DNA of 64,000 nucleotides from Owenia fusiformis. Taxonomy: Eukaryota; Annelida; Polychaeta; Sabellida; Oweniidae. Positions 416-25,755 of the stretch are shown one piece after another; within the stretch, counting starts at the first letter, position 1, and each line of letters begins with the position of its first letter. A program made the position numbers and the translations under genes. The notes beneath the pieces were generated by a model that was given only the letters and a program-made list of their open reading frames with translations, had not been told where the DNA came from and made no database searches. The stretch is from NCBI GenBank assembly GCA_903813345.2, contig CAIIXF020000004.1:6281525-6345524 (forward strand), in the 5' to 3' direction.

Positions 416-3400
416 GTAAGGTGTATATATGTCAATTTTAGTACATACGTTCATTGTCTTTTATAACACTAAGTCGCAGGAAGGGTGTCATCTGGACACT
501 TGTTGTGATATTACTTGTTTTTTACATTTCAAATAACACGAAAATTATGGTAAAACCTTTTCAAGAGCCGAAGTTTCACATTTTATGAAGATAGCAGGTA
601 TCGTGAAATTCCATTGAAGTGACGTGATATTGAATAGTCAGCAATTTCAAGTTCTACTCGTATTTTTGTATTTAGCATTAATATTTCAAGATGTACAACA
701 GATGCCAATTAGTAATTTAGTATGTAGATGTATGAATGTGTCACTCGACATTATTCCATCATAATTAGGACCCATGATGTTGCCCAGCAACCGACTAGTA
801 ACGGCACAAACATCGAAATAGTGAAATTGAAACACGGTCTATAGTGGCTTGATTTTCCTGAAATAATACATATTGGAAAGAACTTTCAAGATACTAAGTT
901 ATAGTCTATCAAAAATACCAATAATAATATTTTTTATATTTTCTAGAGCATTAAAAACAAATTAATAATCAATATTTTTTTCGAATTTCAATCTTATCGA
1001 AATCGAATTCCAACTATCATAACTTTGCCCGTCTATCCCCAATTACCTTGATTTTTACGCCAAAAACTGTATTTCATCTGTGGCTCACGCTAAAAAAATA
1101 ACGGAGACGCAAAAAATATTTTCTAAATAGTGCTCTACAAAAAATCGAGAAGGGGTCGGATTGACCCACCTGTAGACTGTAGGGTAAATCGGAAAAAAGG
1201 AAGATATCTTTTTCACAATAACGTTTTCGAGTGAATGCAGAACAAATTTTTCTTGTTTCAATTTTGTTATCAAAAGTCCAACATATTGGACAAAGACGCG
1301 GATGGTCGTGATAATTTTTGGGGACAGTGGGAGGGACACTCGGATGCTTTTTTTGGGACATAGGGAACAACTAGCAGGCTATCTGGGGCCATAAGCATGC
1401 TTTTGGGGCTACTTAGGGCGATTAGGATGGTTTTTGGGCCACGGAAGCATTGTCCAGAAGTGGCACTGTTTTCAGTTTTTAAAAATTGGAACATTTTGTC
1501 ATACAGATTCTTCAGTTTTTACGAAATCTTAAAATACTGATTATCAAAGGATCAGAAATCTCAGATCTACATATGTTACAGGAAATTAAAATTCTGTAAA
1601 GCCAGCAATCAAATTGGTCAGATTAAGAGACTCTAAAGTTTTTACAGAATATTCCACACATCGAAATATCCGACTCCTCTGAATTAAAAAAAAATTCAGG
1701 TTTTTGCACATCCCCAAATCAGGTTTGTCAGATTCAACAGGTTTTACAGTTTTTACAGAATCTGAATATTATGCACAATCATCCAAAGATCTGATTCCAC
1801 AGATTCAGCAGTTCTTCAGTTTTCTCGGAAAATTAATACATCCCATAATCGAATTTATCAGATTCAACATATTCTACAGTTCTTACAATAAAAAATCAAA
1901 ATTTTGTACATACCAAAATCTGATTCCTCAGACTCAACCGATTCTACGGTTTTTACCGCACATCCCGAAATATGATTCCTCAGAATCTTCAGTTTTTACA
2001 AAAATCCTCAACATTCCAAATCAGATTTCTCCATTTCAACAGAATAAACTGTTTTTACAGCATCTGAATATTCTGAACATCCGAAACTCTGATTCATCAG
2101 ATTCAACAGATTGTACACTTTTTACAGAAAATTAATATTCTGCACCATCCATGGGCGTAGCGCTATATTTCTAAGTAGTACGCCACCGCGGGAACAAGAG
2201 TTGAGCGAAGCCAAAAACGAGCATTTAGGGGGGGGTGGGGGGTTCTCCCCCAGGAAAATTTTGAAATTTGGTTGTAATTGGAGCGACTTTGCAACCATCT
2301 GGTACGCCTCTGCGTACCCAGTGTACCAGGCGCTACGCCTATGCCATCGAGAATCACTGGTCCTCACCTAGTTACCCAGACGATACGTCGATGTATCATG
2401 GCGGAACAACATCCGGGACTCGTTTTCGATGAGAATCTTTTTATTTCTCTATTTACACGTACTTATAAGTCACATTGCTTTAGCCCGAAGTTAAGGAAGA
2501 TAGTCTGAGAATGTGTTTATAATTTTAAGTTTGGTATATTAACGAAAACGCAATTCATATTTTGTCCCTGGCTTTTGTTACACTGACAAATGACCAATGT
2601 CACACCGACGAATGTCTGATTTTGAGCTGCTGTTACACTGACGAACTATTTCAATATTGTACATTATATTAGGTAACAGCCATGAATATATACTAGTTAA
2701 ACTTTTTCAGAGAGTCGTGGATGTCGCAAATTCAAATGCTATTATTGTAGTAGGGAAGAGGGAAGCGTCAAATATGTTATTATGGACACAATCAAAGCTT
2801 TTTGAAAGATTTAATCGTTAAGTTGTGCTGAATATAATTGACCAATCCTCAAGAAACCATGCTCATTTGCAAGATTAAAGCTATATTTTTGAACTAAAAG
2901 CGGTGGGTTTGCTCGCGCAGCACTTAATGAGCCTTATCGTGAAAAAGGGATGGTATCTTGGCAGTTTGTGCATAAATATTGCAAGCACGCACTGAATCTC
3001 TTGACTTAACAGCTTTTAAAATCATCAAACTTTTTGACGAATACATCTCAAATAGCCCCAACCTCAGTGCACCCAAGCATATATAGGGAGCGACCTTCCT
3101 AAAAGATCAGGTGGATGTCCTACTGGAAAGATAATCTGGTGGAACTCATTATTCCACTTTTTGTAGCTACAAGTATTTAATTTCAATAGATGATAAACTT
3201 CTCAATATAAGAAATTACCCTCATAAGACATTGTTGCAAGGTGTGTTGCAAGAATATAGCACCCGCATTCCCGGCCCGCATTATGTATTCTCGAAGAAAG
3301 CCATCATGATAAACCATGACATCTCATTTCTTCTCAGCCCTGTGTTTCAGGTGAAACAGAAAGATATGAGTATCAGAATGGAAGAAAGCATATATTTGCA

Positions 3401-20100: not shown

Positions 20101-20997
20101 GTCTGTATAAAATGCGTAATGTGTTTATTGAATATTGAACAGTTCCCTGTCATGACTGTTTTTCCGGTTGACAAAGTGAATACAGGTGGTTGTTTGTACC
20201 TGTGTAAGAGGGGATCGATTTAAATGTTGTTTGCTATAAACTTAATGTGACAGAGAAACAATGGATTAAAAATGTGAGGAAAACAAATTAATTCAAAATT
20301 CAAAATTAACTTTACAATGAATTAATTGATTGAATCAAAAATTTAACACAATGTTAATCATAACATGAGGGACATTATACAATCAAATATGTATGTAAAA
20401 ACTTATTTTGCAAATCATTTTTGTGGACACACCATCCCTGGCCAGGCCTTCATGATCACACTTAGTCAGTGTGTAGCAGGTAACCTGATACCTAGCTACT
20501 GATCTTGGCTAGCCTTCATTCTGCTGCTGTTGCTAAGCAACTAGTGGCATCAAAATGGCTGCCACTATTTCTCATCTTGTATACTAGTATTGCATTTTGA
20601 TTTCCCCCTATCCCAGATAATCTATTTGCCCCTCTAAGAAGTTGAACTGAGTCCCAGATAGTTCATAGAAATTATCTTTAATTTATATCTGACATCTGGC
20701 TTGTGGTTCAACTACTTATGTAAGATCAAATCCTAGATGGATCATTAAGGAACTTTCTCCAATTAGCTTGATGTGCCCCAACTTTAACCTTGTATAAGTG
20801 AACTAAAACCAACTAAAACACTATTAAAATTGTATTAACTTTAAATGTAACATCTTCTGATCATGAAAAGGTAAGTTTCATCAGGATTTACTTGGTTTTA
20901 CATCAATAATTTTACTTCTAAACTACACACCCTCACACAACCTTACACGCATTTTGGATAATATAACGGCTAGCTATTAGCACTAAAAGGATACATT

Positions 20998-21630
20998 ATG
21001 GAAGGCCATAACAAAGATGCACATAGAAAAGCATTGGATTATCTCTGTAGGCTTTGTGGAGACAAAAACCAAATACGGCGCAAAAAGTATAGTGCAAAAT
21101 CATGTGTACTGATTCAAAATGAACTTGTGATTGTATGCCCTGATGTAAATCTTGACAATGATGTTCCGGACAAGCATCCAAGTAAAGTATGTCAGAGATG
21201 CTATAATGCTATGAAACAGTTTAAATATAAAGGGAAAATAGATAATAGACTTAAAGAAGTTATTCAAAATACAAACAAAATGTGGAATTCTGTGGAAATC
21301 AATGAAACTACTTGTACTATTTGTGAGCTATACTCTCAGAATGTCAAATCATTTAAGCGTAAACAACAGGAAGACCAAATGGACATAACCTTCAATGAGA
21401 ATGAAATAACTATCCAGAGTACTCCTAAAAAACAATGTCTAGACAGTTCAGCAATAGGCACTTCCATGACACCTGGCAGGGGCCGGGATGCATGTATAAG
21501 CGAACTTCTCAGAAAGCCTATTGATATGCCATTCACAAAACTAGAAGAACACTTGCTCACTCATCTCGTACGCAGAAAACTAAATCAATCATCTATCAAA
21601 GACCATCTTGTTTGTAAAACCAAAGGCAAG
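20998..21630 (+). CDS. RAG1-like transposase, exon 1 (N-terminal zinc region)
   Basis: 211 codons from ATG at 20998 to the donor GGCAAG/GTAAGA after 21630, ending at phase 0. It shows C17-x2-C20 (LCRLCG), H60-P with C65-x2-C68 (HPSKVCQRCY) and C106-x2-C109 (CTICELY). The order and spacing match the N-terminal zinc-binding part of vertebrate RAG1 (CRxCG ... HPxxxCxxC ... CxxC). In RAG1 this region supports folding, nuclear transport and ubiquitin-related functions. Its job in the transposon is not known to me. The intron to exon 2 is only 189 bp. Confidence 0.88.
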
Positions 21631-21819
21631 GTAAGAACAATTAAACAATTATTTATTAATTTTGATTAAGTTCTAACAACTCTTATCTGGCCCTTGATCC
21701 TATTATGAAAAGCCCATTAACTCTTCAAGTGCATCTCTTGTTTAATCATTTTATGACTGTAGTAATTTAGGGGTTATAAAGTCATTAGATTTTAATCATA
21801 GATAATAAACTTATTTCAG

Positions 21820-23790
21820 CCCCTCATCTTCATGAAAATAGAGAAATCTCAAGTATCCAGTGAAAAAGCATCATCTCCTTTAAAACGTAAAAGAGCGCGT
21901 AAAATAAAAAAATGCAGAAAAGTGATTGGTGGTGATAATAATGAGTCAATGTTACATCAGATGTCTAAAGAAATTCTCAATGAATCCAGGAAAAAGAAAC
22001 AAAAGGACATGCTGACATTTCTAACAAAATTGAGATCGAATAAATTAAATACAAGACAAACTGTTTCAATGAAAAGTGCTGCAAGGTTATCATATGGTCA
22101 GATGAAAATCATAACAAGACATTTACGAGATGCAAACATAAATATTGAGAGTCAGAATAATCAAATTCACTACAAGAAATCCTTAATGAAAAAACTTAAA
22201 GTTAAAGGAAAGTTAATGGATTTTCTTCAAAGGGATAAAGATGCTCCTGGGGCCAAAAAAGGAATGGTTTACAAAAAACTACCAATGGCATATATTGGGA
22301 ACTTACAAAAGTATCTCAATGACCACCTTGACAAAATGGAACAGTATAACACATTGTGTTTAGACCACCCTGTCATACCTAATAGTGAATTATGGGTTAA
22401 AATCGGTGCTGATCATGGTGGGAAAAGTTTTAAAACATCCATCCAGGTGCTCAATACACCTAATCCAAACGCAACTAACAACTGCCTTGTTTTTGCGATG
22501 TTTTGCGCAAAAGACAACAGAGATAATCTGGAAACTGCTTTGAAAAGATTTGACACTCACATTAAAAAATTGAAATCAATGACATGGCATGGGAGAAGAA
22601 TTCGTCTATTTTTATGTGGAGATTATGAACTCCTCACCAAAGGCATGGGGTTGTCTGGGCCAGGTGGCACTTTCTCATGTTTGTATTGCCATATCAACCA
22701 CAACGATTACAGTATACCGAGACAGGTACGGAAAAAATCAACAGAACGAACTCTTGAAACATTGAAACATAACTTTGAATTATATTGTACAGAGGCAGAC
22801 TGTAACAAATCTAAAGCAAAACATTATATGAATGTGATTGCAGAACCTTTGTTTGACATTGAAATTAATCATGTCTGCCCCCCATATCTTCACATCATGC
22901 TAGGAATTGTTTTAAGACACCACAATATTTTAATCAGTCAATGCAATTCCATTGACAGAATTATTGGCCGAGGAATAGCCATGGATAACATGCTGGCACC
23001 AAACAAGTCTGACACTCCATTTGGGACATATGTTGGAAAATGGGGGAAAATCATAGATCAACAAAATACATTACAAAGTATGAAAAAAGGAAAAGCACGT
23101 AAACTTCTGAAAGATAAAATTCGAGAAGAAAAGAGTCTTTTGACTCTTAAATCAGAGTCTGGTCCTGTTGCAGCGGAACTTGACAATGTTTTAAAAAGAC
23201 ATAATATAAAAAGGGCTGCATATCATGGAAAGAGCTTAGAAGGAAATCATTGCAATAAGTACCTAAAAAAGGAAGTCTATGAAGACTTAGCAAACGAAGT
23301 TGTCAGGAAAACACAACATTTATGTCAAAATCTGAGTGTAGAGAAAAAGGCTCTTGACAAAGCATATTCGACCAGAGACAAGATTATCAAAATCAATGAA
23401 GCATTTTCCCTGATCCATACATCAGTAAGTCATTGTGAAACAATAGAATCTTCACTCATTCCAACTATTCAAAATCACATAGACAATTACATGCAACAAT
23501 ATAGGACATTGTTTCCAAATATCAAAATAATACCGAAGCAGCATATTTTGGAAGACCATATAACACCATGGATACAAAAATTCAAGTGCGGAATGGGACT
23601 CCATGGAGAGCAAGGGGTTGAATCAACCCATAAAATATTTAATGAACTTGACAGGAGAATGTGCAGCATCAGAAATCCGTTAAATCGCCTGATAACCACA
23701 ATGTCCGAACATCTCCTCAACTGTCAACCCGAAATTAGCACCGCAAACCCAATTATTAAGAGACGGAAAGCTGTGAAGAAAGCTCAATAG
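21820..23790 (+). CDS. RAG1-like transposase, exon 2 (DDE core)
   Basis: The acceptor TTATTTCAG precedes 21820 and the exon joins in phase 0, giving a total of 867 residues. A basic N-terminal stretch (KRKRARKIKKCRK) may bind DNA or act as a nuclear signal. Candidate catalytic residues in total numbering are D409 (KIGADHGGKSF), D479 (IRLFLCGDYELL) and E808 or E812 (LHGEQGVESTHK). C498-x2-C501 (FSCLYCH), followed by EPLFDIEINHVCPPYLHIML, matches the zinc-binding insertion and the helix after it in RAG1 and in Chapaev/CACTA transposases. No frameshift or stop is seen. The reaction would be cut-and-paste transposition with hairpin intermediates, by family analogy. Confidence 0.88.
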   Translation, partial: PLIFMKIEKSQVSSEKASSPLKRKRARKIKKCRKVIGGDNNESMLHQMSKEILNESRKKKQKDMLTFLTKLRSNKLNTRQTVSMKSAARLSYGQMKIITRHLRDANINIESQNNQIHYKKSLMKKLKVKGKLMDFLQRDKDAPGAKKGMVYKKLPMAYIGNLQKYLNDHLDKMEQYNTLCLDHPVIPNSELWVKIGADHGGKSFKTSIQVLNTPNPNATNNCLVFAMFCAKDNRDNLETALKRFDTHIKKLKSMTWHGRRIRLFLCGDYELLTKGMGLSGPGGTFSCLYCHINHNDYSIPRQVRKKSTERTLETLKHNFELYCTEADCNKSKAKHYMNVIAEPLFDIEINHVCPPYLHIMLGIVLRHHNILISQCNSIDRIIGRGIAMDNMLAPNKSDTPFGTYVGKWGKIIDQQNTLQSMKKGKARKLLKDKIREEKSLLTLKSESGPVAAELDNVLKRHNIKRAAYHGKSLEGNHCNKYLKKEVYEDLANEVVRKTQHLCQNLSVEKKALDKAYSTRDKIIKINEAFSLIHTSVSHCETIESSLIPTIQNHIDNYMQQYRTLFPNIKIIPKQHILEDHITPWIQKFKCGMGLHGEQGVESTHKIFNELDRRMCSIRNPLNRLITTMSEHLLNCQPEISTANPIIKRRKAVKKAQ

Positions 23791-24882
23791 AACATTGTGA
23801 GTATATATTTTAATTTAAAGTTACAAGCATTTGTATTAAGTACACAAACACGCATTCACACACATAAATATGCCCAAGTATTATAACCTATTACTAATAA
23901 CTTGATATTAATAATTTATATTTAGGCTCCAGTTTTTTAATCTGGAGGCTATTACATGTATTAGGCTATTTGTTTGAAAAAGATGCTCAGTTGTAGGTTA
24001 TTATTCAATCCATGAATTTGAAAGACAATATGCATGCATGTAGGTACTATATTCTCCCCACAAGAACTGCAGTGTGAACATGTTAATTAAACCCAAGACA
24101 GTGTCTTTAAGTGCTATCTAATTACCATGAAAGCTGGAGTGGTAATTACCCTATGAGTGATAAGCTGTTTAACTGGACACCAACAGCTCCACTGGTGGCT
24201 GTTAATTACACTACAACTAAGTGTGCTAGTGCAGGGATGGTGTGTGGAATTAAGAGCCATCAGCTGTAGAGATTAATCCATTAACCATAACAAACAGATT
24301 AATTATCAGTATGAATGAAACTCATTTCATAGGAATTGAATAATTAGGGATTAACGGCTCGAAAATAACCGCGTATAATAGGTTTTTGATTGCAAATGCC
24401 AACATATTATTTGCTCCTGACAGGAATATTATTCTGTATTATTTGGCATTATATGTTGTTCCCTTTAAATAATACACGAATAATATTATTAAATCAAAAA
24501 TAATTCTTAAAAATACGTATTATATTTTTTTCCGTTATAATAAAAGAAATAACTGCCTATTATACAGGAAAAAATATTCTCTACGATTCTCTCTTAATGC
24601 AACTTATTTAGCAGTATATTAAACATTTTATTCTATATTGTTTTTACTTTTTTTACCAAGTGAATAATCTAGGGTTTTGAAAATCCATGACAATTTATAC
24701 TACACATTTTTGCTACATTAAATATGCCTGTGCACATTGACGTTAATTTGTATATCATCCGGGAGTGTGCCTTTTATTTATACTAACACAATGAGCAACG
24801 CCAACAACGACTGTAAATTAAGCCAAACTTTATTGTTTATACGCCATTTGCAATCTACATACATGGATTTCTTGTTATATAG

Positions 24883-25755
24883 ACCTGCGGAATAAGGCAT
24901 CTGAACAGAGGAGATTTCTGTAAATTCATGGGGGTGAACAGAAAAGCGTGGCAGCCTTCAGAGCGAGTGTCCATCTACAACACGATACGTCCGAATTTAG
25001 ATACCGAAACAATGACATTCTGGGATGAAAATCGTATGTTGATAGAAAAGGGCATTCTCTATTGCAGTGACTTAGAATTATCATTAATGCAGTTGAGTGA
25101 TATATTAATTCCGAATATCCACGAACGTAGAACCGTATCCGAATTCCTTGCCTTGGGTGATGACATGGAGAAACAGATCGACTTCTTTGAAACAGTTTGG
25201 AATACGCCACAATGGAGACGTGTTTACACACATATACGCAGTCTTGCAGCATCATCAGCGGTTCTGCCGGAAGTCGATTACGCACAGGCGTGTTTAAACC
25301 ACTTTGAGAAGACAATACGAAACATCCCAAATAATAAGAATCATTTGCTCGAGTTTTTGCTGACTGGAGAAATAGAAGGAATGTGTTTACCCCCATATTT
25401 AAGAGACGGGAATTATGAGTTCATAAAGTCCCGGCTCGATAGAATACAATGGCTGGAGTCTGATCTGCTGACATACGTAGGTAACTACGCGAAGCAAGGC
25501 CAACCAAAGTTTGATGGAATCAACTTCTCTTCAATTTTGAATTACCAAAGTGCAGCCAAGTTACAAGATTTATTTCATAATGCAGCCAAGATTTGTCACC
25601 CTGGAGCAAAACTTGTATATTACAATCTACCTGCGGTTAAAGCGAGGATTCCCTTCGATGTATGGGATGGTATGAAGCTAATATGCGAAGACGAGAAGAA
25701 TTGGAAAGACACCAACAGTATTTACTTTCTTCCAGCTGTGACGACTGTCCATTGA
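24883..25755 (+). CDS. DUF3419/BtaA-like gene, exon 3 (C-terminal half)
   Basis: The last and largest exon (290 codons plus stop) starts at phase 0 after the acceptor TTCTTGTTATATAG. It is open from 24883, upstream of the first ATG at 24928. It carries the family's C-terminal hallmarks in order: IRHLNRGDFCKFMGV (the LkxxaixxLxxxDFxxfxG stretch), RVSIYNTIRPNL, FWDENRMLIEKGIL, WNTPQWRRVY, LPPYLRDGNYEFIKSRLDRI, then FSSILNYQS with AKICHPGAKLVYYNLP. BtaA moves a 3-amino-3-carboxypropyl group from S-adenosylmethionine to diacylglycerol in bacteria and algae. The substrate of animal DUF3419 proteins is not known to me. The three exons give about 380 residues, near family length. A truncated duplicate of this exon lies at 30531-30760. 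Confidence 0.85.
   Translation, partial: TCGIRHLNRGDFCKFMGVNRKAWQPSERVSIYNTIRPNLDTETMTFWDENRMLIEKGILYCSDLELSLMQLSDILIPNIHERRTVSEFLALGDDMEKQIDFFETVWNTPQWRRVYTHIRSLAASSAVLPEVDYAQACLNHFEKTIRNIPNNKNHLLEFLLTGEIEGMCLPPYLRDGNYEFIKSRLDRIQWLESDLLTYVGNYAKQGQPKFDGINFSSILNYQSAAKLQDLFHNAAKICHPGAKLVYYNLPAVKARIPFDVWDGMKLICEDEKNWKDTNSIYFLPAVTTVH

Follow-up and report, generated by a model that had tools for sequence, protein, structure and literature searches.

Two-part ends in which a terminal sequence is followed at a set distance by a second site are known from recombination signals as well as from transposons. The V(D)J signals recognized by RAG1/RAG2 start with a CAC heptamer, are bipartite, and have spacers that differ by about one helical turn (12/23), and the origin of this 12/23 rule is an open question. 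Chapaev transposons (CMC/CMCT group) have CA..TG ends and a DDE transposase core with C(2)C and H(3-4)H motifs, which have been described as shared by Chapaev, Transib, and RAG1 (PMC12730594). It has also been reported that Chapaev carries a Chapa domain related to the RAG1 N-terminus and that a published tree places it outside Transib plus RAG1 (PMC4411706). Another invertebrate transposon with a RAG1-N-terminal-like protein is N-RAG-TP of Aplysia californica (PMC8355894). All of these systems share features with a transposon in a 64,000-nucleotide stretch of DNA (the window) from the annelid Owenia fusiformis (assembly GCA_903813345.2, contig CAIIXF020000004.1, positions 6,281,525 to 6,345,524), which an original prediction, based on the letters of the window, had described as an intact RAG1-like element with 22- and 12-bp spacers at its two ends. 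The ends of this element and of its relatives in the same genome are compared here, and a long/short asymmetry of about one turn was found in every element with a resolved pair of ends.

Long and Short Ends in 13 Transposon Families

Direct reading of the window (Table 1) gave exactly the predicted coordinates and spacer lengths of the element, here assigned to family F1. Both ends start with CACACCA and contain a second shared motif, as had been proposed: from 20428 the left end consists of CACACCA, 22 bp, and CACACTTAGT (sequence CACACCATCCCTGGCCAGGCCTTCATGATCACACTTAGT), and inward from 24244 on the minus strand the right end consists of CACACCA, 12 bp, and CACACTTAGT (sequence CACACCATCCCTGCACTAGCACACTTAGT), the left inner motif lying 10 bp deeper than the right one. 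The outer repeat common to both ends is 13 bp (CACACCATCCCTG) and not merely 7, so the unshared stretch amounts to 16 bp on the left and 6 bp on the right. A second F1 copy (L001), 98.8% identical, has the same ends and its own target-site duplication (TSD), TAAT.

Further elements were collected from one 498-Mb genome, and both ends could be resolved for 33 elements of 13 families; transposase sequence, broken in some, is present in 22 of these and absent from 11. Each of the 33 has one long and one short end, and none has two like ends. Counted from the tip, the TTA of the inner motif lies at 34-36 on the left and 24-26 on the right in 33/33 (left/right: F1 35/25; F2 35/24; F3 34/24; F4 34/24; F5 34/25; F6 34/25; F7 35/24; F8 36/24; F9 35/26; F10 35/25; F11 35/25; F12 34/24; F13 35/25). 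By left-right difference, the elements fall into groups of 10 (9 bp), 17 (10 bp, including F13), five (11 bp), and one (12 bp). Polarity is fixed, the long end preceding the transposase sequence in 22/22, and the gene-less copies keep both end lengths. Moreover, pattern scans led to eight short non-autonomous elements, all of which possess a long and a short end and are flanked by a perfect 4-bp TSD. Within families, the two ends match at 140/156 positions in the outer 13 bp and at 85/96 in the inner 8 bp, the latter figure being partly a matter of construction, and to that extent a weakness of the case, because the comparison was anchored on the inner motif. Between the two motifs they agree at 27/91 positions, about the level of chance, yet the length is kept; there are 18 different left spacers and 16 different right ones.

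Because it appears in 33/33 elements of 13 families with fixed polarity, and because length is kept while spacer sequence varies, the one-turn asymmetry is not accidental in this genome. Aligning the two ends of other copies separately thus gave the pattern expected from the original prediction, and equal or random spacers, named there as the contrary outcome, were not seen in the 33 pairs, although two lone ends deviate (see below). As to whether a 12/22 asymmetry is general in the family, a difference of about 10 bp is the constant quantity; the exact values of 12 and 22 depend on where the motif boundary is drawn in one family.

The relatives were found as follows. A protein search with exon 2 pointed to 70 genome places, and 68 of 176 candidates were scored, which makes all copy numbers lower bounds. 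The regions fetched were 20, then 20 more, seven possible counter-examples (L041-L047), and eight short non-autonomous copies (L048-L055). Besides the window element, resolved pairs came from 17 of the first 20 regions, from eight of the second 20 (seven elements), from none of the seven possible counter-examples, and from all eight short copies. Ends were sought as inverted repeats starting with CAC (in one step, CA) and adjoining a short direct repeat; the first end searches ignored the inner motif, and later ones ranked candidates by a score to which the best inner word common to both ends contributed, whatever its offset. For L002 and L003 the ends were set by the drop in similarity between the two copies, with no CAC requirement, and the pair of L012 was chosen among several candidates. 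As a check for bias, every pair of CAC sites flanked by a perfect 4-bp TSD was ranked by the 13-bp outer repeat alone, with the inner motif ignored. The accepted pair came first in 24/24 tested elements, in L012 jointly with one other pair; F13, which was assembled from two loci lying 6.2 kb from each other, stood outside this check. CAC tips are present in 33/33, but CAC was required in the searches and patterns, and its presence independent of that requirement was seen in L002 and L003. Likewise, the 4-bp TSD in 33/33 is partly due to selection, and it is present in 10/10 elements where the TSD was not used for finding (L002, L003, L048-L055).

Genome-Wide Scans and Deviating Loci

Scans with family-specific patterns provided a second view of end lengths. 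The first F1 pattern, with 21 allowed lengths in 498 Mb, gave eight exact places, three at 22 bp, four at 12 bp, and one at 27 bp that is without the remainder of the outer repeat; its reversed control gave none. When the pattern contained all 13 bp of the outer repeat and 41 lengths were allowed, nine exact F1 places were found, five at 39 bp (the 22-bp class) and four at 29 bp (the 12-bp class), and none elsewhere. The remaining patterns were each allowed 31 lengths. For F3/F12, 10 of 23 places were at 39 bp, 13 at 29 bp, and none at the other 29 lengths (reversed control, 0); for F7, 6/6 exact places fell in the expected classes, three at 40 bp and three at 29 bp; and for F9, 11/12 did so, with nine at 41 bp, two at 32 bp, and one at 28 bp. 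Pooled over the four family-specific scans, 49 of 50 exact ends fell in the two expected classes. Mismatched matches in the F1, F9, and F7 scans were no commoner than in the reversed controls (35, 332, and 11 in all) and were therefore used only where checked, namely for three F9 right ends, a known F4 left end, and L030. A broader pattern gave 42 matches versus 11 in its control, with TTA at 24-25 or 34-35 in 28 of them and elsewhere in 14.

The best inner word shared by the two ends, sought at any offset within bases 14-55, was displaced by +9 to +12 in 11/12 families, compared with 7.1% of 382 pairs of internal segments used as a control. In F13 a 13-base exact word was found at +10.

Several observations speak against a strict rule. 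L030, a lone F1-like left end (G000 C12:18783101-18783149, minus strand), has a 32-bp spacer with TTA at 45 instead of 35, that is, an inner motif 10 bp deeper by a further turn; it belongs to an old degenerate copy for which no partner was found. A lone F9-like right end at C23:41187 is 4 bp short. F7 has no clear shared inner word, its best being a chance-level 5-mer at -3, and the inner word of F2 is supported by a 5-mer only. In F13 the outer match is weak (7/10), and the score used to select the pair took the inner word into account, whatever its offset. Fifteen fetched loci have no resolved pair (L013, L014, and L015 of the first 20; L025-L034, L037, and L038 of the second). Besides L030, these comprise five with a single end each at the expected spacing (L014, L029, L031, L032, L034); L028, which has both ends at the expected spacing, a damaged left tip, and no matching TSD; three 2.9-kb repeats (L025-L027), whose F6-like right ends have the expected length and lie inside a longer repeat with no partner; and L013, L015, L033, L037, and L038, in which the end searches found none. 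Finally, the 13 families share ancestry within one genome and are not 13 independent trials.

The same shared ancestry, together with the shortness of the stretches compared, would suit a simpler account by chance or inheritance, in which an ancestral 10-bp insertion in one end was never lost. This is very unlikely, given that left and right spacers agree at about the level of chance and that the arms vary by 1-2 bp between families, whereas their difference stays at 9-12 bp at protein identities down to 30%; the 1-2 bp changes indicate that insertions and deletions do occur.

As a separate matter, the possible counter-examples L041-L047 proved to be two repeats that match loose patterns at other lengths. 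Since similarity continues past the CAC, this CAC is not a tip, and they neither support nor refute the asymmetry.

Inner Motif and a Possible Pairing Rule

Across families the inner motif is TTAGTT-like and, as originally stated, is not the nonamer of V(D)J signals. Some families have variants that match at both ends, namely TTAATG in F9, TTTAATCC in F12, and CTTTAYTSTC in F10, and a TTAAT core is found in F2, F9, and F12. The same departure from TTAGT at both ends would be expected if each site changes along with its own transposase. The motif might instead be bound by a host factor, such as an HMG-like or zinc-finger protein. In favor of a host factor, only weak zf-AD matches were found in the transposase, and no domain that would bind the motif could be recognized. 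The like changes at both ends of F9, F12, and F10 nevertheless make a host factor quite unlikely; in F7 and F11 the core differs by one base between the two ends.

Two further features of the ends were noticed. In F6 (L009), 18 bp around the inner motif are common to the left and right ends, so that the left end looks like a right end with 9 bp inserted. A third, CCACNAGTGGCGCT-like motif lies at about bases 45-60 from the right tip (window ~24185-24200, minus strand); the right ends of F1, F3, F5, F6, and F7 have it in common, those of F2 and F12 show it less clearly, and it was not observed in left ends at the corresponding place.

Taken as a whole, the data are probably best explained by two-part ends whose difference of one turn causes long ends to pair with short ones. 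The outer repeat starting with CAC would be the place where the transposase cuts and would be read by its catalytic core, and the inner TTAGTT-like site may be bound by another part of the transposase multimer, perhaps the N-terminal Cys-rich domain. The inner site is about 25 bp from the right tip and about 35 bp from the left, one DNA turn further; both inner sites would therefore share one helical face, though shifted, and a complex of one short and one long end might form best. Such pairing would favor the joining of the two ends of one element over that of like ends of neighboring copies. By analogy with RAG (12/23), ProtoRAG (27/31), and the P element (9/21), a pairing rule is plausible.

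The asymmetry could also have been kept for another reason that involves no pairing rule, such as unequal strength or order of binding at the two ends or control of the promoter by the left inner site. That the long end is always upstream (22/22) and that left ends and right ends each share further end-specific similarity deeper in would agree with this, but the gene-less copies (11/33) need no promoter and yet keep both lengths, perhaps being too young to have lost them. On balance this alternative appears somewhat unlikely, and long/short pairing is preferred.

The Transposase and Its Classification

The window gene has two exons, with donor GTAAGA and acceptor ...TTTCAG, and their joint translation runs without internal stop, in agreement with the intact gene of 867 residues that had been predicted. 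Among 11 aligned transposases, with pairwise protein identities of 30-60%, all the catalytic and Cys/His residues listed in Table 1 are invariant; the CxxC insertion foreseen in the DDE core is thus present as C287xxC290 in 11/11, and H575x4H580 likewise. Because the Pfam domain DUF1280, whose function is unknown, matches all 11 and covers D198 (residues 48-252 of window exon 2), it is probably part of the Chapaev-like transposase. The transposase tree separates {F9, F10, F11} from {F1-F8}, both with 100/100 support and with F12 and F13 outside the tree, and asymmetric ends are present in both deep clades.

Table 1. Features of the F1 transposon in the window (residues in exon-2 numbering)
Feature	Position	Strand	Details
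Complete transposon, family F1	20428..24244	+	3817 bp
TSD TGGA, left copy	20424..20427	.	4 bp
TSD TGGA, right copy	24245..24248	.	4 bp
Left outer repeat CACACCATCCCTG	20428..20440	+	13 bp; heptamer-like CACACCA at start
Left spacer	20435..20456	+	22 bp; boundaries of the original prediction
Left inner motif CACACTTAGT	20457..20466	+	TTA at base 35 from tip
Exon 1	20998..21630	+	211 codons; N-terminal Cys-rich domain; weak zf-AD and RAG1_imp_bd matches
Exon 2	21820..23790	+	transposase core; DUF1280 region; D198, D268, C287/C290, H575/H580, E597, E601
Right inner motif CACACTTAGT	24216..24225	-	TTA at base 25 from tip
Right spacer	24226..24237	-	12 bp; boundaries of the original prediction
Right outer repeat CACACCATCCCTG	24232..24244	-	

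In six families, eight pairs of copies were compared, and their main alignments show 98.8-99.7% identity. Since the paired copies also have different flanking duplications where both ends are resolved, these families moved recently. Several open reading frames are intact. The window element is probably a recent, gene-bearing, cut-and-paste transposon of Chapaev-like type.

In the F9 transposase (L017, L018, ~2616-3176), a 66-bp (22-residue) tandem repeat with several ...SITSMDTTPEIVLHTSK-like units lies between the N-terminal domain and the core. Downstream of the window element, overlapping open frames of 275 (plus strand) and 156 residues (minus strand) occupy 24926-25755. No relative was found in the viral contigs searched, and an AlphaFold2 model of the window core alone, with a mean predicted local distance difference test (pLDDT) score of 36.6, was left unused.

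Chapaev elements have, by definition, a TSD of 4 bp, a value for which the literature search gave no textual support, and that of RAG and Transib elements is 5 bp. Judged from its sequence features, the element is best filed as Chapaev-like (CMC/CMCT group) and not as RAG or Transib, because it combines a 4-bp TSD, CAC ends, and a core with C(2)C and H(3-4)H. The label of a RAG1-like transposon therefore could not be upheld: the TSD is 4 bp and not 5, no second gene was seen, there is no nonamer, and the RAG1 comparison was not significant. RAG and RAGL transposons carry RAG1L and RAG2L genes in convergent orientation. In the window element, to which the check for a second gene was confined, the only open reading frames of at least 80 residues are the two transposase exons, and a gene of short exons would escape such a check. 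The search against RAG1 that had been suggested gave an hhalign score of 15.7 for mouse RAG1 703-980, while the maximum for 100 shuffled RAG1 sequences was 25.25. As for the RAG1-type N-terminal zinc region, the proposal received weak support from RAG1_imp_bd (Pfam), which matches the window protein at 21.5 bits, under the cut-off of 23.3, and three of 10 others, all below cut-off; zf-AD matches the window protein below cut-off and 9/10 others, two of them above it.

Some similarity in the register of catalytic and Cys/His residues was also observed. Mouse RAG1 has identical D-x18-C-x2-C and H-x4-H spacings (D708, C727, C730; H937, H942), the top local hhalign alignment places H575, H580, and E601 opposite H937, H942, and E962, and the second His is followed by an ES at +21 here versus +20 in RAG1 (E962). 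This RAG1-like register is suggestive only, because a profile of the 11 transposases matched no PDB chain and the hhalign score was not significant. A genome-wide search with the RAG1 Pfam family PF12940 was uninformative, since its controls gave no matches. The possibility that these are true RAG1-lineage signals, with ends homologous to V(D)J signals in a narrow RAG/Transib relative, might draw on the CAC start, these spacings, and the RAG1_imp_bd matches, but the features that removed the RAG1-like label make it very unlikely. A wider relationship is another matter: the transposons are probably distant kin of RAG1, the enzyme that cuts antibody genes, and this group-level kinship rests on published work because our own RAG1 comparison was not significant.

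Comparison with Known Systems

In the open-licence literature, no description of a conserved long/short two-part end was found for Chapaev, which is a weak negative. The Drosophila P element has an unrelated transposase. In that transposon, a terminal repeat and an inner transposase site are separated by 9 or 21 bp, spacings about one turn apart, and this asymmetry has already been likened to 12/23; P elements differ from the present ones in their 31-bp terminal inverted repeat (TIR) and 8-bp TSD (PMC7776569). Because P elements show the same feature in an unrelated transposon, asymmetry alone does not mean a RAG-type rule, a further point to be set against the pairing explanation.

Asymmetric CAC ends are likewise found in a few Transib families (12/23) and in ProtoRAG (27/31) (PMC8355894, PMC8289069). 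ProtoRAG has been reported to prefer asymmetric pairs, and a preference for asymmetric TIRs was considered possibly common to ancient RAG transposons, with most Transib families being symmetric (PMC8289069). For invertebrate RAGL elements, rather low sensitivity to spacer asymmetry has been predicted (PMC7204232), and asymmetric oyster TIRs have also been listed (PMC8355894). In CMCT transposases with CAC ends (Chapaev, some Transib, and the RAG line), a long/short pairing rule of about one turn might be ancient. This broader idea is unlikely at present; if true, the 12/23 rule of antibody-gene assembly would predate both RAG2 and the RAG transposon, and an invertebrate system with a single protein would allow its study. 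With recent near-identical copies and several intact reading frames, such a rule would be directly testable in a one-gene system.

The interest of these elements lies in a one-turn asymmetric end architecture that extends across many families of a probable RAG-line relative, where a DDE group bearing C2/H2 motifs combines weak RAG1 N-terminal similarity with asymmetry of fixed polarity. V(D)J signals and RAG differ in having a nonamer, a 5-bp TSD, and a RAG2 partner, and significant similarity to the RAG1 core was not found here. Unlike Transib, in which most families are symmetric, each of the 13 Owenia fusiformis families is asymmetric, with 4-bp TSDs.

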